Virus record (IMG/VR): IMGVR_UViG_3300043661_000050
Location: 1 to 34,281 of that record
Direction: 5' to 3' (one strand)
Source: a virus
Length of the DNA stretch: 34,281 nt
Shown in pieces: positions 3,477-23,532 of this stretch (positions within the stretch are counted from its first letter, which is position 1; every line of letters begins with the position of its first letter). The notes beneath the pieces are model-generated. The model was not told the DNA's origin and did not search any database. It saw nothing but the letters and a program-made list of their open reading frames with translations. Position numbers and translations under genes: made by a program.

Positions 3477-4361
3477 TAGAGGTTGGTCCAGTCCAATAGC
3501 TGCTGACCGTTGCGTGTCTGATCTGTACGCCTTGCGAGATTCCTCCCGATACAGCGGCCCGGCTATGAACGGCAGCTCGTCGGCAATGAACCCGCACCGG
3601 TTGCGCTGCATGACGATCGCGTTGCCCGCGGGCACCTGCCGCGAGACCAGGACGTCAAGGTTGAAGATCTTGTTGGGCAGCACGCCGGTGTACTGGAGGT
3701 TCTCCGACGCGATGTCGCCGATGTAAGGCGCGGCGAAGCTGCTGGACTGGAGCAGCGTGTTCTTGGTCCCGTGGTTGATGATCATCGTGTCGGCTTCGAA
3801 CCCGAGGAACTGGTTGAACCCGATCGCTGAGGTTATCTGCGCGTTCTCGACAAGATAAACGGCGTTGGCGATGTCGCCGCGTATTGTCGCGTTCGATGAT
3901 GCCCACGGGTTGGCGACGGCCAGGGTCTGGATGCCCGCGTTCGCGATCACCGCGCTGTAGAAAGCGGTGTTCCACGAGTAGATCATCGTGTTCTTGACCT
4001 GCGTGAGCTGCCTGGTCACGGGGTCGATGACCTGCCGGCGGCGCATCTCGTCGGACACCAGGATCGCCATTGCCCGCTCGTGGGTGAAGACCACCCTCGG
4101 GATGCCGACCGACGTGGGGACGACGGGGACTTCCGCGAATTCGGCGCGGATTTCCGGGGTGTCGTCGGCGTACAGCGGCGTGGACTCGCTGTAGCGCACC
4201 GCGCCGGAAGTCGCCAGGCCGCCTGCGCGCAAGACGGCGTCGACGATGAACTCGTTCTGAGTCATCTCGAGAATGAGCGCGGGAATGACCAGCGGGTCTT
4301 TCAGCAAAGCGTCGACGGTTATGCGCGGGCCGTCACCAGAGCTGTATGCCGGAGTTGGCAC
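3450..4361 (-). CDS. Phage major capsid protein
   Basis: A 303-residue protein, probably the shell subunit. After a short N-terminal arm it has the hydrophobic segment DALLKDPLVIPALILEMTQN, then VVFTHERAMAILVSDEMRRR (long-helix region) and the beta-rich C-terminus NLDVLVSRQVPAGNAIVMQR with FIADELPFIAGP. This pattern (a helix followed by a surface-displayed P-domain-like beta region) is typical of HK97-fold capsids of actinophages. It follows the decoration-like gene and the protease-scaffold gene, the usual order. The GTG start is preceded by AGGAG at seven bases. No N-terminal delta domain is visible, which fits a separate scaffold protein. Confidence 0.8.
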   Translation of the reverse strand: MPTPAYSSGDGPRITVDALLKDPLVIPALILEMTQNEFIVDAVLRAGGLATSGAVRYSESTPLYADDTPEIRAEFAEVPVVPTSVGIPRVVFTHERAMAILVSDEMRRRQVIDPVTRQLTQVKNTMIYSWNTAFYSAVIANAGIQTLAVANPWASSNATIRGDIANAVYLVENAQITSAIGFNQFLGFEADTMIINHGTKNTLLQSSSFAAPYIGDIASENLQYTGVLPNKIFNLDVLVSRQVPAGNAIVMQRNRCGFIADELPFIAGPLYREESRKAYRSDTQRSAAIGLDQPLSITLLSGV

Positions 4362-7437: not shown

Positions 7438-8320
7438 CGGTCGCCGGCTCGGCCGCAGCCTTCGCGTGCATCACCGCTGCCCGCTTGGCCAGTGCCATCG
7501 CCTGCTTCGGCGACAGCCCCTTCCTGATCAGCTTGGCGTACACCAGCGCGACCTCAGCGGACATGGCCTGAGCCTTCGGCGCCGTCTTGCCAGCAGCTTT
7601 CCCCGCGCCGCCCTGCGAGGTCACGCGCGGCCCGTCCGGCGCTGACACCGCCGGCGTGGAATGCGGCAGCGCGGCCGCCAGGTCCAGCGTGTCCTGATGC
7701 TCGGCCGCGTAGCCTCTCAGGTTCGCGATCCCGCCGCCCGCAGGTGTCGCCGCGCCGCCGTTCTGCGCGGCCGGGAAACCCGCCGCCGGCCTGGCTGCCG
7801 CGATCTTGTTGTGGTAGGCGATCAGCCCCGCCATCGCCCCGGCCATGCTGCCCGACGCCGGGGTCCTGGTGCCGTTGGCGTGCGTGGCCTGCCAGCCGCT
7901 GCCCGCCGGGGAGAGCGTCCCGACCTTCATCCCGGTCGACTTGTGCTGGACCATGACCACGCCCGGCGCTGACCGGGACGCCTGGACGTCAGCCGCGCCC
8001 CGGATGACCGGCATCCTGCGCGCTGTCCTGGTCGCCATCTCGATTGCCTCTCCGTCGCCTGCGCCCTGGAACGCCCACGTGCCTTTCACGCCCGGCGCGT
8101 CCGTGGCCTTGAGCTGCTTCGCCCGCCTGACGATCAGTGCCTTGAGCGCGGGCCACTTGGCCGGGTCTACGCGGCCTTTCGCCCGGATCGCCTTTTTCAG
8201 GTAGGCGAGATCGGGGATAGGCGCGGTCCCGCCGGCGAGAGCCTGCCCTTCGGCGGCGAGTTTCCTGCGGCCTGCCGCGCGCTGCGGTGCCGGGGTCTTC
8301 ACTTGCCCCCCCGCGCTCAC
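7424..8320 (-). CDS. Head-module protein of unknown function (298 aa)
   Basis: An Ala-, Lys- and Gly-rich protein. Residues 36-70 contain PIPDLAYLKKAIRAKGRVDP followed by KALIVRRAKQL, a short helical module that I know as recurrent in actinophage capsid and prohead-protease proteins, where it lies beside structural domains. The centre (residues 105-160) is beta-rich with IRGAADVQASRSAPGVVMVQ and a GTLSPAGSGWQATHANGTR segment. The C-terminus is a lysine/alanine helix. The GTG start overlaps the stop of the HAD-like gene by four bases. A structural or assembly-related role is likely from its place between the ParB-domain protein and the protease. Confidence 0.6.
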   Translation of the reverse strand: MSAGGQVKTPAPQRAAGRRKLAAEGQALAGGTAPIPDLAYLKKAIRAKGRVDPAKWPALKALIVRRAKQLKATDAPGVKGTWAFQGAGDGEAIEMATRTARRMPVIRGAADVQASRSAPGVVMVQHKSTGMKVGTLSPAGSGWQATHANGTRTPASGSMAGAMAGLIAYHNKIAAARPAAGFPAAQNGGAATPAGGGIANLRGYAAEHQDTLDLAAALPHSTPAVSAPDGPRVTSQGGAGKAAGKTAPKAQAMSAEVALVYAKLIRKGLSPKQAMALAKRAAVMHAKAAAEPATAKAA

Positions 8321-8784
8321 GCGTAGCCCTGAACCTGCGCGGGAGGATCGCCGTCGCGAGCCGCGCGAACGGCATCTCTCACCTTGTCGAGCCCGGTCCT
8401 GCTGTCAGGCAGCGGCGTACCCGGGTCGCCCAGCGACAGGAAGTCCAGCGCCTGCGCCCAGCTCTCGAACCTGACGCCCCGGTCATCGATGTAGGCGACC
8501 GCCGGCAGCTTGCGGCTCGTGACCAGCAGGTAGCCGCGCTCGTTCCAGAGGCCCTTTCGCGGAACGCGGGTCACGCACTCGATGCCGTGCCCCGACCGGT
8601 CCTCGATCCACCGCGCGACCTGCCGGGGTTTGCGCGAGGTATGGATGAAGACCCCGTAGCGCTGCATCAGCCGCGTCAGCCCGGCGACGGCACCCGGCAC
8701 GAAATCGCCGTAGATCGAGCCGTCCTGCCAGCCGCGCTTGTAGTCGTGGATTACGCCGTCAAAGTCCACGGCGACAGTGGTCAC
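8317..8784 (-). CDS. HAD-fold hydrolase-like protein (155 aa)
   Basis: A 155-residue protein with the haloacid-dehalogenase motif I VAVDFDGVIHDY, giving candidate nucleophile Asp7 and acid Asp9. Motif II is probably FIHTSRK (Thr49/Ser50) and the metal-binding acids are the pair Asp100-Asp101 in VAYIDDRGVRFESW. HAD enzymes hydrolyse phosphate esters; phage members of this short type may act on nucleotides or on 5'/3' phosphates of nucleic acid, but the substrate cannot be read from the sequence. It is coupled to the downstream gene by a GTGA overlap. All key acids are present, so it is probably active. Confidence 0.75.
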   Translation of the reverse strand: MTTVAVDFDGVIHDYKRGWQDGSIYGDFVPGAVAGLTRLMQRYGVFIHTSRKPRQVARWIEDRSGHGIECVTRVPRKGLWNERGYLLVTSRKLPAVAYIDDRGVRFESWAQALDFLSLGDPGTPLPDSRTGLDKVRDAVRAARDGDPPAQVQGYA

Positions 8785-12436: not shown

Positions 12437-12442
12437 ACCCTA
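12437..12442 (-). promoter_or_regulatory. Candidate leaderless -10 (TAGGGT) overlapping the portal stop
   Basis: On the minus strand TAGGGT is followed by GACGGG and GTG 12430. Its TAG is the stop codon of the portal gene. Confidence 0.45.
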
Positions 12443-14845
12443 GCTCTGCGGCTGGATGCCCATCACCGGCACGTCGAACGGCTGCGCCATGTTCTCCGGC
12501 AGCGGCTGCCTGGACGCCCCCTTCAGGGCCTGCTGCGCCACCCTCGCAGCCGCCGACACGCCGCCCGCGAGATGCCCGAGCGCTGCCGCTGACTGCGCCG
12601 GCATTCCCTCCGGTGCCTGCGCCTGGGCCTGCGCCTGCCGGTCCGCCGCGCCCTGCTGCACGATCTTCGTCACCGCGCTGACGTCAAGGTTCAGGAACGT
12701 TGCCAGCCGCTCGGTGATGATGTCCAGGATCCCGGCCGGGACCTGCAAGGCGGGCGCGACCGCCAGGGCCTGGAACAAGGTCACGAGCTGGCTGCCGGAC
12801 TCATCCGACAGCGCCCCGAACGAGAACTTCGGGTAGGACGCGCCGGGGCCGAAGTTGAGCGTGACCAAGGGGGCGATCACGTCATGGGTGAAGCTCGCCG
12901 CGATCTCCAGCGAGATCGCCTGCCGACTCTTGAGGAAGAACGCGGACTGGTCCTGGCTCAGCGCGAGCGACCCGCGTCCCATCGCCGCCAGCGACGACAG
13001 CCCGGTGAACCCCGCCAGGACGCTCGCGGTCTGCCAGGTCTCCAGGAACGACAGCGCCGCCGCGAACTGGTCGCCGCCCTTCCCGTCCGCCGCGAGAATC
13101 TCGAACGTCTTCTCCCCGGACGGCGGGCGCTGGAACCCGACCACGCCTGAGGCCCGCATCGACGCGATGTCGTCGGCCTTGGCGTTGGCTTCGCGCTGGT
13201 CCTGCCCGTAGACCACGACTTTGGGGAGGCTCTGCTGCTCAAGGAAGGCCAGCCAGAGGAATATCAGCTTCAACTTCGTCTGATAGCAGTTGTGAGTGAC
13301 GATGAAGTCATTCGTCAGGAACAGGCCATCCGGCTCGGCCACCGTAATGCACCGGCAGTCCTTTTCCTCAGTCTGCTCGATGCTGACAACATGGGTCCTT
13401 GCCCAGCGAGGACCGCGCCGCCAGAGAAGCGCCTTGCGCGGCAGCGCAAACGGGCATTCCTCGGTGAATATCTCCACTCGCGGGCATCGTCCGGCGATGG
13501 CACGGGACACGGCCGAACCGCCGAGTGACCTGACGAGACGCGCCAGGTCGAAGGCGAGCTGAGGCGACTTGGTGTAGTACCTGGAGCTGTTGCCGCCGCC
13601 GCTGATGCCCATCTCGATCGAGCCGTCAGTGTCCATCAGCCCGCGCAGCAGGTCAAGCCGCTGCTCAGCCGGGGCCGTCAGGTACATCTCCGGAATGAAC
13701 CGCTCCGGGCTCTTGCGGTTCACGCCCAGCGCGACGAGGGCGTCCCGGAAATGGTTCTTGCGGTACGCCGCGACGGGCCGGAAGTGATAATCGCCCTTTG
13801 TGCCGGCTGAGCCAGGTTCAAGCTTCATCGATGCCGGCAGGCGCCGCTGTACTTCCTTGGCGATCCACTCATCGGGCTCCTGGCAGGCGAAGGTCGGAGT
13901 CCCGGCGCGCTCGCCAGCGGTATTCGTCCGGATCGAGCCGTCACCGAGCCACGCGCCCAGGACATACGGGTCGATCGGCAGATCGCGCACCGGGTACTCC
14001 ACCGGTTCGCATCGCGGCACCGCGAAGCGCCACTGACCGGACGCCGTCCCGCGACGCCGCAGGCCGGCGTCCATCAGGTCGCTGGTGCTCATCACCTGGT
14101 ACTGGAAGCCCGGCGAGCGCTGCGAGTCGTAGACGCCCCACAGGTGGTCGGCGTCGCATTCGACCGATGTGCCGTCCTTGAATGCGACGCGGTACATCAT
14201 CCGCTTGCCGCGCGGAATCACGTCGGTGACCTCGGTCGGCTTGCCGTTCACGCCGAACACGAGATCGCCCGGCCTGAGCTGGCCGATCTTTACGGGACCA
14301 CCAGGCGTCTGCACTTCTGAATTGTACGCTAGCGCCCAGTAGCACAAATCCAGTTCGCTCGTGCCGGTCAGCGGCTGCCGGTGCCGCCCGTTTATGTGAA
14401 CGAATGACTTGACCTTCGGGATGTCCACGTAACCGGGGGTCTTGCCCTGCCTGGTGGTCATCACCGAGCCGCCGAACAACCAGACCTGCTGCCGGAATCC
14501 GAGCATTGACGCGGTGCGCGCGTCTCGTTTCAGCTCGCACGTAGCCGCCGGGCGGTAAGCCAGCTTGCCGTAGACGACCTTGCCGTCTTCGTCCCTGATG
14601 TGCCAGACCTTCTCGAAGAAGGCCTTGCGGTAGACCTGCGCCGACGTGACCTGGCCGACGACGTCTTGCAGCGGCGTTTTCATGCCGCCCGAGGTTTCCG
14701 GCGCGACGAGCACCGAGTGGGCGAATTCGCACTCGCCCTTGTCATCGTGGCCGGGCTCGATCGCCCGCGACGCCTGCCGGATCGGCAGCGTCAGCACGGC
14801 CTCCAGTGCCGCGGCCTGCCCGTCCCGCACGAGCATCTGGGACAT
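12440..14845 (-). CDS. Phage portal protein containing a class 3 intein
   Basis: The 801-residue reading frame is a portal subunit interrupted by an intein at residues 171-519. The exteins join as SELDLCYW and CYQTKLKLIFLWLAFLEQQ, restoring the conserved portal core that forms the DNA channel of the head. The N-extein has MLVRDGQAAALEAVLTLPIR and EKVWHIRDEDG; the C-extein ends in an Ala/Gln-rich tail. The start ATG 14845 is probably not the original one: eleven sense codons and a TAA lie just upstream, then 52 more matching codons (separate entry). It may now be made by reinitiation or be defective. It follows terminase genes and precedes the MuF gene, as expected. Confidence 0.8.
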   Translation of the reverse strand: MSQMLVRDGQAAALEAVLTLPIRQASRAIEPGHDDKGECEFAHSVLVAPETSGGMKTPLQDVVGQVTSAQVYRKAFFEKVWHIRDEDGKVVYGKLAYRPAATCELKRDARTASMLGFRQQVWLFGGSVMTTRQGKTPGYVDIPKVKSFVHINGRHRQPLTGTSELDLCYWALAYNSEVQTPGGPVKIGQLRPGDLVFGVNGKPTEVTDVIPRGKRMMYRVAFKDGTSVECDADHLWGVYDSQRSPGFQYQVMSTSDLMDAGLRRRGTASGQWRFAVPRCEPVEYPVRDLPIDPYVLGAWLGDGSIRTNTAGERAGTPTFACQEPDEWIAKEVQRRLPASMKLEPGSAGTKGDYHFRPVAAYRKNHFRDALVALGVNRKSPERFIPEMYLTAPAEQRLDLLRGLMDTDGSIEMGISGGGNSSRYYTKSPQLAFDLARLVRSLGGSAVSRAIAGRCPRVEIFTEECPFALPRKALLWRRGPRWARTHVVSIEQTEEKDCRCITVAEPDGLFLTNDFIVTHNCYQTKLKLIFLWLAFLEQQSLPKVVVYGQDQREANAKADDIASMRASGVVGFQRPPSGEKTFEILAADGKGGDQFAAALSFLETWQTASVLAGFTGLSSLAAMGRGSLALSQDQSAFFLKSRQAISLEIAASFTHDVIAPLVTLNFGPGASYPKFSFGALSDESGSQLVTLFQALAVAPALQVPAGILDIITERLATFLNLDVSAVTKIVQQGAADRQAQAQAQAPEGMPAQSAAALGHLAGGVSAAARVAQQALKGASRQPLPENMAQPFDVPVMGIQPQS
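13289..14335 (-). mobile_element. Class 3 intein with LAGLIDADG endonuclease, in the portal
   Basis: This in-frame 349-residue insert starts with Ala instead of Cys/Ser (ALAYNSEVQTPGGPVKIGQL) and ends VTHN before Cys520 of the C-extein. Block B is SVECDADHLWGVYD with Trp236, block F is DCRCITVAEPDGLFL with Cys499, and block G has Thr517. The Trp/Cys/Thr triad with a non-nucleophilic first residue defines class 3 inteins, which splice through the block F cysteine. Between them lie two LAGLIDADG motifs, YVLGAWLGDGSIR and LRGLMDTDGSIE, each with its acidic residue, so homing activity is possible. All splicing residues are present, so it should be active. Confidence 0.85.
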
Positions 14846-14878
14846 GTCGCGGCTGGTCCACTCGCCGTAGTCGGATGC

Positions 14879-15037
14879 TTACGGTAAGAAAACGCCACCA
14901 TCCCCGTAAAATGCGAACATTCGGTCCATACTATCGTATTGCGTACCAATTTCCCCGCGCAGCAAGTCACGGCGCGTGGCCGGCTTCAGGTCGGGAAGCG
15001 CGACAATCTTCGCTGCCGCGGAGTCGGGAGGTGACAT
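14879..15037 (-). pseudogene. N-terminal part of portal, cut off by in-frame TAA
   Basis: From ATG 15037 a sensible 52-residue peptide is read: MSPPDSAAAKIVALPDLKPA, then GEIGTQYDSMDRMFAFYGDG and GVFLP, ended by TAA at 14879-14881. The very same frame continues beyond the stop with ASDYGEWTSRD and then the portal start at 14845. The text before and after the stop reads like one protein N-terminus, so I take this as the broken 5' end of the portal gene. It might instead be a separate small gene. No strong ribosome site precedes 15037. The region 14880-14960 is clearly more AT-rich than the neighbours. Confidence 0.55.
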
Positions 15038-16078: not shown

Positions 16079-16474
16079 ATGTGCTACGACCGGAAAGGCC
16101 GGCTGATTGACCTGGCTGAGTGGGCGCGCCTGCACGAGGATCGCGACTACCTGTCCGTCGCGCAGCACTGGGCTCGCGGCTGGATGATCTCCACCGTGTG
16201 GCTCGGCCTTGACCACGGCGCCGGCCTGGCAGGTGCCCCGGTCATCTTCGAGACCATGATCTTTCCGCCGGGGGACGTTGCCCTTCCGGCCGATGCCGAC
16301 CTGTACCAGGAGCGCTACTGCACTGAGGCTGCCGCGCGCGCCGGGCATGACCGGGCACTCGCGTGGCTCGCCGGGAAGCTCGGCGATGACGTGATGGCCG
16401 ATATCGCCGGCCCGCTGGTTCGCGGGAGCAGCGACGAGCACTGGGATGGCGATATCGGCCGCATCGAGTCCTAG
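16079..16474 (+). CDS. Actinophage-type conserved protein of unknown role (131 aa)
   Basis: A 131-residue protein of a family that I recognise from actinophages and integrative elements: MCYDRKGRLIDLAEWARLHE, then WMISTVWLGLDHGAG and APVIFETMIF, ending with an AGHDRALAWLAGKL helix. The core VSTVWLGLDH...PxIFETM is the family hallmark; its function is, to my knowledge, not established. The message is probably leaderless (TATGCT six bases upstream), divergent from the RHH-like gene with shared operators. Its last four bases overlap the terminase stop on the other strand. Confidence 0.75.
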   Translation: MCYDRKGRLIDLAEWARLHEDRDYLSVAQHWARGWMISTVWLGLDHGAGLAGAPVIFETMIFPPGDVALPADADLYQERYCTEAAARAGHDRALAWLAGKLGDDVMADIAGPLVRGSSDEHWDGDIGRIES

Positions 16475-18144
16475 CGCCAGGCGTGCACGTTCGGCCGCTG
16501 CGGCCTTCCGTCATCCTCTTGCGGCGCGAACGAGTCCAGGTCCCACCCGTCACGGTTCTCGGCCTGCTCCAGCTCGCGGGGCGTCATCCTCGGCCGCCGC
16601 TTGCCCCGCGTGTCCTGCGCCAGGGCTTCCAGGTCAGCGGCTGCCGCCCACTGGCGCGCGCTCGGCGCATGCGGCGCCGACGACGGCCAGAACGCGATCA
16701 CGCAAGCGTCGCCGTCGTCGGTGGATCTCCCCAGCCGCCTGGCGATATCTTCCTTGGATTCCACCTGGATCTTCGCGCCGGACAGGACCCGCCACTTCGG
16801 CGCGGACAGGTCACCGAGGAGCATCTCATCATCAGGCAGGCAGACACCGGAACCCGCTGACGGGTCGAGCCGCTCGCGCATGGACCACCACGCGGCCGAC
16901 CGGACCTGGCTGAACCCCAGCTCGCCCGTCGCGTCACGGTGCTTAGTGCCGGCCGCCGCGGTGAACGCCTCCACGCGGGCTTCCTGCTCGCGCAGGCGGT
17001 CGTACACGCCGCCGCCCAGGCCGTCGACCTCGATGACCGCGGTGCGGCTCTCGTCGGCGTTCAGGACGCCCTTGACGTGCCCGGCGGTCTGCATCGTGTC
17101 TTCCTTGACGAACCGCCGCAGCTCGGTCAGCACCGGGCCGTTGCGGATCGCCAGGACCGTCTTGTCGCTGCCGAACCGGGCCACGTCCACGCCGACCGTC
17201 CGCGGCCACTCCAGTTCCAGTCCCGGCCAGCCCGCGGCTTCCATCTCCAGCCACCGGGCCACGGCGGCCTCGGCCCACGCCAGCGGGATGACGGAGTCCT
17301 CGTCGCCGGCGTGGAACTCGCCGAGAACCCGGTTGACGTAGATCGCCGACTCCGCGCCCCACTGCCGCTTGCGCTGCGCGGCCCAGTCCGCGCTGATCCG
17401 CCCGGCCTCGACGGCCTCGGCGAGCGTGACGTGGACGGGATGCCAGTCCTCGTAGCCGGGACGGCGGGAGCAGATGTCGTGGAAGCGGCCGTTCGGCGCG
17501 CCCGGCGTCGACAGCGCCAGCGCCAGCGCTTCCCCGGTGCCGGCGAACGCGCCCTCGCACGCGTCGAACGTGCCGGCGGGGATGGCCTTGGACTCGTCGT
17601 AGACGAACAGCAGCGAGTCGGCGTGCGCGCCCTCGATCAGCGCAGCGTTAGCGGACGCGCCGGCGAACGCCGCGCCGTGAGCCAGCCGCAGGTTCAGGTT
17701 CTGCAACTCGTGCGCGCGGGAGAACGGGCCGCTCTCGCGTACCCGGTCCCAGCGGATCCGCCCGGCCCACTTGTGCAGCTCAGGCCACAGGTACTGGACA
17801 AGCTGATGCCATGACCCGGCCGTCGTCGGGATCTTCCAGTCCACCCCGGCGGCGTCTCGGGTCAGCGCGAACCACAGGATCGTCACCGACGCGATGCAGC
17901 CCTTGCCGAGCCCGTGCGGGCCGCGCACCGCGATGCGCTTCTTGCCCGGCAGGTCGCCGATGACGGCCTGCTGGTAGGCGGCCAGGCCGTCGCCGCGCCA
18001 GTCGATGCAGTCCGCCGCGAACGCCAGCGGGTCATCGTAGTACTTCGCCACGCCCCGCTTGATCCGGGACGCGCGGCGCTGGAGATCCCGCAGGTAGCGC
18101 AGCCGGTCAGGCGCTGCCTGTATGAGCGGGATCGTTGACGGCAA
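16471..18144 (-). CDS. Terminase large subunit
   Basis: A 557-residue packaging motor that translocates DNA into the procapsid and cuts it. The ATPase part has Walker A GPHGLGKG (75-82) and Walker B LLFVYDE (178-184), with the LALSTPGAPNGRF coupling motif near 210-221. The nuclease part shows the RNase H-like acids GVDVARFGSDKT (Asp320), VIEVDGLGGG (Asp374) and DDGDACVIAFW (Asp476-Asp479). Length is typical. The start is TTG 18144, with GGAG eight bases upstream, inside the end of the small subunit gene (38-base overlap). No intein is present here, unlike the portal. Confidence 0.88.
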   Translation of the reverse strand: MPSTIPLIQAAPDRLRYLRDLQRRASRIKRGVAKYYDDPLAFAADCIDWRGDGLAAYQQAVIGDLPGKKRIAVRGPHGLGKGCIASVTILWFALTRDAAGVDWKIPTTAGSWHQLVQYLWPELHKWAGRIRWDRVRESGPFSRAHELQNLNLRLAHGAAFAGASANAALIEGAHADSLLFVYDESKAIPAGTFDACEGAFAGTGEALALALSTPGAPNGRFHDICSRRPGYEDWHPVHVTLAEAVEAGRISADWAAQRKRQWGAESAIYVNRVLGEFHAGDEDSVIPLAWAEAAVARWLEMEAAGWPGLELEWPRTVGVDVARFGSDKTVLAIRNGPVLTELRRFVKEDTMQTAGHVKGVLNADESRTAVIEVDGLGGGVYDRLREQEARVEAFTAAAGTKHRDATGELGFSQVRSAAWWSMRERLDPSAGSGVCLPDDEMLLGDLSAPKWRVLSGAKIQVESKEDIARRLGRSTDDGDACVIAFWPSSAPHAPSARQWAAAADLEALAQDTRGKRRPRMTPRELEQAENRDGWDLDSFAPQEDDGRPQRPNVHAWR

Positions 18145-22575: not shown

Positions 22576-23532
22576 CTATCGGCTGCGGCGGGTGACGCCG
22601 CCAGACGGGCGGCGGGCGCGGTCACGCTGGGTGAGATCGGCGGGGTACGGGTAAGCCCGGTCACGCTCGGTTACGTCCGGGCGGTCACGCTCTGCGACAT
22701 CTCGCGTCCTAGGATGTCCTGAATGTCCTAGCGTGTCCTGGTGGGAGGGCCGCCCGAAGGGCGCTGTGCCGGCCTCCCCACCTAGGCTGGCGGCGGGCTT
22801 GCGGCGTGGCCGTGACCCTTTGTCACCGCGCCGCAGCCGCTTACGGACCGTGGTGGCTACGCGCTGTGACCACCGTCGCCGCTGGGCCTGGGCCTGCGCT
22901 CTCGTCCCCCGGTAGCCGCCGTGCTTCACAGCCAGGGAAAACACCCAGTCTGTCCCGGTATAGCCGAAATGCTGCGCGACCTTCAGCAGGTTCTCGCCGC
23001 CGCGGAGCATGTCCCCCGCATCCCGGCCGACCTGCTCGACGCAGGGAACGCAGCGGCGCCCGGGGTTGCGCGTCCTGCCGCCGCACCGGGCGTGGTTGAC
23101 GCAGTCATGGGCCGGCGGGGACACCGGCAGCGGGCCGCCGTTGTTGCGGACCTTGTCCGCGTGCTGGTCACGGCCGGTACCGCGGAACAGGTTGCCGCCG
23201 CGGGCGCGCGACTCCTCCTCGCTGCCGGGCCGCCACCGGTTGTTCCGGGGGTCGTCGTCGTAGTGCCGTGACTGCATGCCGTCGGGGCACGGGCCGGCGA
23301 AGGTCTCCAGCACGACCCTGTGCGCCTGGCGGGTCACCCGCCTGCCCTGGGCGTCCCAGTACTTCACCAGGACGTAGCCGTCCTTGCCGATAGTGGTCGC
23401 GATGGGCTGGCCCTTCAGGCGGCGCCCGGACGGTGACACGCGGTCGACGGACCGGAAGTTGCCGTCCCATGAGCATTCGTAACCGGGGCCGCCGGGGATG
23501 GCCTCCCAGCGCTCAGGCGTCGTGTCGCTCAC
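22576..23532 (-). CDS. NUMOD4-HNH homing endonuclease-like protein
   Basis: A 318-residue protein. Residues 8-35 are a NUMOD4 motif (ERWEAIPGGPGYECSWDGNF, RSVDR). Residues 50-105 are an HNH_3 nuclease: KDGYVLVKYWDAQGRRVTRQ, AHRVVLETFAG with His71, SRHYDDDPRNNRW with His90 and Asn97/98. A cysteine cluster (HDCVNHARCGGRT, RRCVPCVEQ; about 142-169) and a helix-turn-helix-like NLLKVAQHFGYTGTDW follow, then a long basic tail. Such enzymes make site-specific breaks and spread by homing; in conjugative elements they may also nick DNA. Its GTG overlaps the TraB stop by four bases. Confidence 0.75.
   Translation of the reverse strand: MSDTTPERWEAIPGGPGYECSWDGNFRSVDRVSPSGRRLKGQPIATTIGKDGYVLVKYWDAQGRRVTRQAHRVVLETFAGPCPDGMQSRHYDDDPRNNRWRPGSEEESRARGGNLFRGTGRDQHADKVRNNGGPLPVSPPAHDCVNHARCGGRTRNPGRRCVPCVEQVGRDAGDMLRGGENLLKVAQHFGYTGTDWVFSLAVKHGGYRGTRAQAQAQRRRWSQRVATTVRKRLRRGDKGSRPRRKPAASLGGEAGTAPFGRPSHQDTLGHSGHPRTRDVAERDRPDVTERDRAYPYPADLTQRDRARRPSGGVTRRSR

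Follow-up and report, generated by a model that had tools for sequence, protein, structure and literature searches.

A Cys+1 class 3 intein and candidate UUA-programmed bypassing in a Mu-type phage portal gene

The portal gene of the window (the whole stretch of DNA analysed, 34,281 nt, IMG/VR virus record IMGVR_UViG_3300043661_000050) is best explained by a mobile class 3 intein together with UUA-programmed translational bypassing, a joint explanation to which a probability of roughly 0.82 is given on sequence comparison. Judged by its residues and relatives, the intein is an unusual member (Cys+1, portal host, mobile) of a known class; to this the portal gene would add a UUA bypass system, probably a variant of a little-known kind. 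To our knowledge, translational bypassing has very few known uses: T4 gene 60, Magnusiomyces mitochondria, and some candidates. Features of the window are listed in Table 1; loci of the related records are given as L numbers.

Table 1 Features of the portal gene, its intein, the putative bypass element, and the terminase gene in the window
Feature	Position	Strand	Basis
Conserved portal N-terminal segment AKIVALPDLK...GDGGVF, outside the called ORF	14888..15013	-	homology to L014, L037
Take-off codon TTC	14888-14890	-	before TTACCGTAAGCATCC
Putative UUA bypass element TTACCGTAAGCATCC, 15 nt	14873..14887	-	frameshift-aware alignment, frame translation
Resume codon GAC	14870-14872	-	after TTACCGTAAGCATCC
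N-extein of portal, residues 1-170 of the listed ORF	14336..14845	-	intein-free portal alignment
Class 3 intein, 349 aa, with LAGLIDADG homing endonuclease domain	13289..14335	-	exact insertion relative to intein-free portals; AF2; PDB matches
Ala, residue 171 = intein residue 1	14335-14333	-	codon position
Trp B:12, residue 236 = intein W66	14138..14140	-	alignment with relatives
LAGLIDADG motif 1, LGAWLGDGS	13934..13960	-	alignment with relatives
LAGLIDADG motif 2, LRGLMDTDGS	13619..13648	-	alignment with relatives
Cys F:4, residue 499 = intein C329; predicted first nucleophile	13349..13351	-	alignment with relatives
Thr G:5, residue 517 = intein T347	13295..13297	-	alignment with relatives
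His G:6 and Asn G:7, residues 518-519 = intein H348, N349	13289..13294	-	alignment with relatives
Cys+1, residue 520	13286..13288	-	Cys in every portal record examined
C-extein of portal, including stop; Cys+1 first	12440..13288	-	Portal_Mu 530-697
Terminase large subunit; without intein and without gap in the window	16471..18144	-	PHROG 2 match

The portal ORF (14845-12440, minus strand, 801 residues) was matched to Portal_Mu (PF06074; 4.7e-25), over residues 530-697 in the C-extein, and to the portal family PHROG 113; the two matches place it among the Mu-type portals and bear out the portal host of the original prediction. The insert proposed there (residues 171-519, 13289-14335) was found exact by codon positions, with 349 residues in frame. 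Its proposed junctions, LCYW and CYQTK, are matched by a continuous portal core in intein-free homologues: the join ...CYW-CYQTK... has zero inserted residues in 14 intein-free IMG/VR portals (54-73% identical), and 28 more intein-free records, found through the C-extein of a relative, run continuously into Cys at the join, the insert being absent from 42 of 42 intein-free portal records examined. Portals lacking exactly these residues, which had been named as a check, were thus recovered. In a scan of genome contigs for the pattern HNCYQTK, neither a portal nor an intein match was obtained for any stretch. The AF2 model of the intein (pLDDT 93.5) has a HINT and LAGLIDADG fold, and among its PDB matches PI-SceI is first, with the class 3 DnaB inteins 6bs8 and 6rix lower; a chance origin of the insert is excluded because of this fold. 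Both endonuclease motifs noted originally are present, with both catalytic Asp kept (intein D132, D237), and the two acidic motifs together with the domain fold and PI-SceI match assign the domain to the LAGLIDADG family. The insert is almost certainly an intein in a Mu-type portal. The AF2 model of the intein-free L014 portal (pLDDT 42) was too poor for locating the site in a portal structure.

The window terminase is 55% identical to that of Streptomyces phage TurkishDelight, and among cultured phages the nearest portals, at 37-38%, belong mostly to phages of Streptomyces; from these similarities a link of the window phage to a Streptomyces host is loosely inferred. Elsewhere in the window, also on the minus strand, are an ORF with an HNH endonuclease match (22579-23532; phrog_1492, 1.3e-20) and an ORF with a match to a phosphoheptose isomerase phrog (8320-8784; 8e-12).

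Assignment to class 3 follows from the first residue, which is Ala and not Cys, Ser, or Thr, and from the triad W66, C329, and T347 of the intein, aligned with 29 relatives; H64 (B:10), H348, and N349 (codon 13291-13289, minus strand) are invariant. In the alignment with other inteins that had been suggested as a check, the catalytic residues fall in invariant or near-invariant columns, and the Ala and the Trp236-Cys499-Thr517 triad stand as originally described. The Cys at +1, listed there among the class 3 features, is present, but is not support for the class: Ser or Thr is usual, though not strict, at this position, and was found in 84 of 89 class 3 inteins surveyed in viral contigs, the five with Cys being four portal inteins and L009. 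In L009 (4001 onwards), a terminase-like protein, the class 3 intein is followed by apparent further inteins starting CSTKDTN and CIDGDSL, and its +1 Cys may be Cys1 of the next intein. In the portals, Cys is conserved at the join in intein-free records, and the +1 Cys therefore belongs to the portal, the intein having adapted to it. Class 3 inteins were originally described as known mostly from terminases and DnaB-type helicases of actinobacteria and their phages, with a portal host less usual; the class is not confined to actinobacteria (e.g., Burkholderia IcmO), phages of Brevundimonas, Vibrio, and Salmonella have similar inteins in their helicases, and portal inteins have already been reported (PMC5050341).

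Splicing of the window intein very likely follows the class 3 route. Cys499 (F:4) would attack the Trp170-Ala171 bond, aided by His234 (B:10), Trp236, and Thr517; the acyl group would then move to Cys520 (+1), Asn519 would cyclise, and an S-N shift would leave ...LCYW-CYQTK.... A class 2-like route, in which Cys+1 itself acts on the N-terminal junction and Cys499 is not needed, would fit the combination of Cys+1 with a non-nucleophilic residue 1 (PMC5222942), but is considered quite improbable, as the full WCT triad is kept in five of five aligned portal inteins and as Bvi IcmO (Burkholderia vietnamiensis), the only class 3 intein with Cys+1 known in 2016 and the sole characterised WCT intein of this kind, strictly requires Cys F:4 (PMC5222942). 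That the intein is a degenerate, non-splicing relic is still harder to accept: it is basal in its clade and under weak constraint (dN/dS 0.46-0.48 against relatives), but its open ORF retains every catalytic splicing residue and both catalytic Asp of the endonuclease, its fold is modelled with confidence, and there is constraint on the C-extein (dN/dS 0.23-0.29 against L014 and L037).

With the class 3 inteins MP-Be DnaB, Msm DnaB-1, and Mch DnaB1 the window intein shares the triad, a non-nucleophilic residue 1, the THN end, and the fold, and like most class 3 inteins it carries a LAGLIDADG domain (PMC7891396); it differs from the DnaB inteins in having Cys+1 instead of Ser/Thr+1 and in its portal host. 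Bvi IcmO likewise combines WCT with a natural Cys+1 but is a mini-intein on a plasmid gene, whereas the portal inteins, which have endonucleases, constitute a clade of phage portals. Inteins in phage portals are likewise known as the PORT inteins of cluster C1 mycobacteriophages (PMC5050341).

Allelic Cys+1 inteins occupy the same portal site in five other IMG/VR portals (L037, L087, L088, L089, L285; L087 and L169 are the same contig, as are L089 and L167, and the L088 sequence recurs in L172 from another metagenome). The inteins of the window, L037, L087, L088, and L089 make up a single clade (100/99), in which the window is basal; L285, found later, was not in the tree and is by eye closest to L087. 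The L037 intein groups with those of L088 and L089 (99/95), while its N-extein groups with that of intein-free L014 (99/94), and intein presence on the portal tree forces at least four changes. The L088 portal sits among the intein-free L253 and L255, being 97% identical to L253 after the gap described below, with identity dropping from ~95% to 68% over 120 nt before the insertion; this ~120-nt diverged stretch of L088 and L172 may have come from another donor by co-conversion. In L172 the same stretch is unusually rich in AT, and most of its differences from L253 are synonymous. Conflict between intein tree and portal tree is the pattern that homing predicts, the sporadic distribution of the intein points indirectly the same way, and we infer that the portal intein is mobile: its LAGLIDADG domain would cut intein-free portal genes at the join, and the intein would so spread by homing. 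In the phage whose intein-free portal is the closest (L014), a different ORF, of 950 residues, gave intein-like matches (L086, G002:C1:31788-33059).

The second part of the explanation rests on short inserts in the same genes. In related portals the frame is broken, or stops are introduced, by inserts of 4-15 nt, almost all of which begin with TTA in frame; frameshift-aware alignment revealed TTA-headed skips at several sites in many portals, a few being headed by a stop, and no skip in seven gap-free ones (L014, L016, L018, L020, L025, L026, L028). All five intein-bearing relatives have a break in the portal frame 33 nt past the intein (take-off codon, gap, and landing codon: L037, CTT, TTAGCGG, CTC; L087, CTT, TTAGG, CTT; L088, CTT, TTAGACAGAAA, CTC; L089, CTT, TTAGCGGG, CTT; L285, CTT, TTACG, CCC, with a poor landing match), and with the insert skipped the sequence is exactly that of the intein-free protein. 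A gap at this post-intein site was absent from all intein-free portals examined. A tie of the gap to the intein alone was considered and dropped, similar gaps being present at other portal sites with and without inteins; further TTA-headed inserts lie near the portal N-terminus, again with or without inteins. In L285 the first codons read ...TAC TGA TCC GGG GAC GTC..., with a stop at the YY-G site, where L258 and L259 have TGA-headed gaps.

The same design is present in terminase genes. A search of the relatives with window proteins of other genes yielded one further gap, in TerL of L169 (reverse strand), where GGA, TTAA, GGA lies in the P-loop at about base 3770, between RGPHG and LGKS. In cultured phage phiHau3 (L288, NC_018836) the frame of the large terminase gene, annotated as misc_feature and not as CDS, breaks at about 2611-2623 with GGC, TTACTCC, GGT; this terminase (phiHau3 / StrepC.1) is a published UUA bypass candidate (PMC5009743).

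Across 34 elements UUA directly follows the take-off codon in 30 and a stop codon does so in 4 (in the window, TTC is followed by TTA). Landing on a codon of the same tRNA was found in 16 of the 34 (2.8 by permutation), and take-off and landing triplets match at 73 of 102 positions (34.8 by permutation; 0 of 20,000 permutations as high), the table having been curated by eye after alignment, with elements of related contigs not independent and L285 left out. Take-off codons vary (TTC, ACC, ACT, CAA, GGT, GGC, TAC, TAT, CTT). The sequence past the gap is constrained (dN/dS 0.12-0.18 for L088 against intein-free relatives; 0.115 for an intein-free pair), and over the 19 codons between two gap sites pS is ~1 (saturated) and pN is 0. 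UUA-programmed bypassing is, we hold with good confidence, the best reading of the inserts in the relatives.

Programmed -1 or +1 frameshifting would account for inserts that mostly change the frame and sit at a rare codon. It is nevertheless judged improbable: insert lengths fall in all mod-3 classes (4/15/15), several inserts contain in-frame stops, and no single shift direction restores all of them where one hop rule does, which counts against frameshifting. Matching take-off and landing triplets, often a 3-nt direct repeat, could also be the target-site duplication of a tiny mobile or repair-derived insertion, with the genes broken or split; this is quite improbable, as in the curated set TTA keeps the phase of the codon before it, as TTA is absent as a codon elsewhere, and as purifying selection acts on the segments before, between, and after the gaps. 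In L087 frame 0 continues for ~100 codons beyond the post-intein gap, so local reinitiation does not fit this locus; a split gene with reinitiation, simple frameshifting, small introns, and assembly error were all considered and rejected for the gaps. Assembly or sequencing errors are scarcely credible: these contigs are all metagenomic, but the same gaps recur in contigs of different metagenomes (L088/L172; L265/L267/L282; L256/L257), and cultured phiHau3 shows the same design.

In the window itself, TTACCGTAAGCATCC begins with TTA in frame and contains an in-frame TAA, after which the portal continues as DYGEW...; this insert was not part of the original prediction. The element is among the weaker ones, with 15 nt (a multiple of 3) and a landing TCC that matches the take-off TTC at 2 of 3 positions, and the claim of bypassing for it rests on the relatives of the window. 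The sequence upstream is conserved (pS 0.63, pN 0.19 against L014 over 42 codons, 14888..15013, a short segment), so the true N-terminus would lie upstream of ATG 14845, and the portal gene probably starts elsewhere than at this ATG. TTA is found in 0 of 6539 other codons of 18 window ORFs (8.5 expected) and was not found as a codon in the scored ORFs of 28 other loci. A scan of the window TTAs by codon scoring gave no frame change at any TTA; the portal element escaped it, presumably owing to a weak codon signal at the N-terminus.

Translation could instead start at ATG 14845, shortly past the insert, with the upstream segment and TTA insert a relic or leader, and the window gap does keep the frame. 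We regard this as unlikely: the upstream codons keep their protein identity to L014 at the pS and pN given above, gap-free relatives have one continuous ORF there, and at this position many relatives have TTA gaps whose landing codons match. Bypassing is considered probable in the window portal also. The peptidyl-tRNA at TTC would detach while the slow UUA occupies the A site, slip over the gap, and re-pair just before GAC, giving ...GGVF-DYGEW.... Were UUA decoded, the ribosome would meet TAA two codons on; were it not, the tRNA would hop. As a decoded UUA would stop translation, production of the portal would be confined to conditions of poor UUA decoding, such as vegetative growth in Streptomyces.

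The closest parallel is the phiHau3 terminase, with an in-frame UUA right after the take-off codon, a 7-nt gap, same-tRNA landing (GGC/GGT), and a role as packaging gene; here, by comparison, many phages have such gaps in the portal gene, at several sites, and in five contigs they lie beside an intein. In T4 gene 60 and Magnusiomyces byp a non-coding gap is likewise skipped between matched or near-matched codons, the A site holding a codon that is slow, a stop, or unused (PMC5009743), the slow codon being an unused one in Magnusiomyces and UUA in Streptomyces (PMC5009743). The T4 gene 60 bypass is linked to a homing endonuclease (PMC5009743), as in the intein-bearing portals, but has a gap of 50 nt and UAG, against 1-12 nt and UUA here.

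The portal clade of Cys+1 class 3 inteins with endonucleases allows the order of branched intermediates to be tested in natural inteins beyond Bvi IcmO. For the phages as a whole we somewhat favour a lineage that uses UUA solely as a skip signal and not for leucine, with short gaps bypassed in the portal and, in some phages, the terminase, in which DNA packaging would be conditional on low UUA decoding (a bldA-type switch) and portal inteins would home between these genes. If this is true, natural UUA gaps with varied take-off codons would make the phiHau3 proposal experimentally rich, portal and terminase genes in such phages would likely be annotated as truncated or split, and phage packaging would be linked to host control of UUA decoding.
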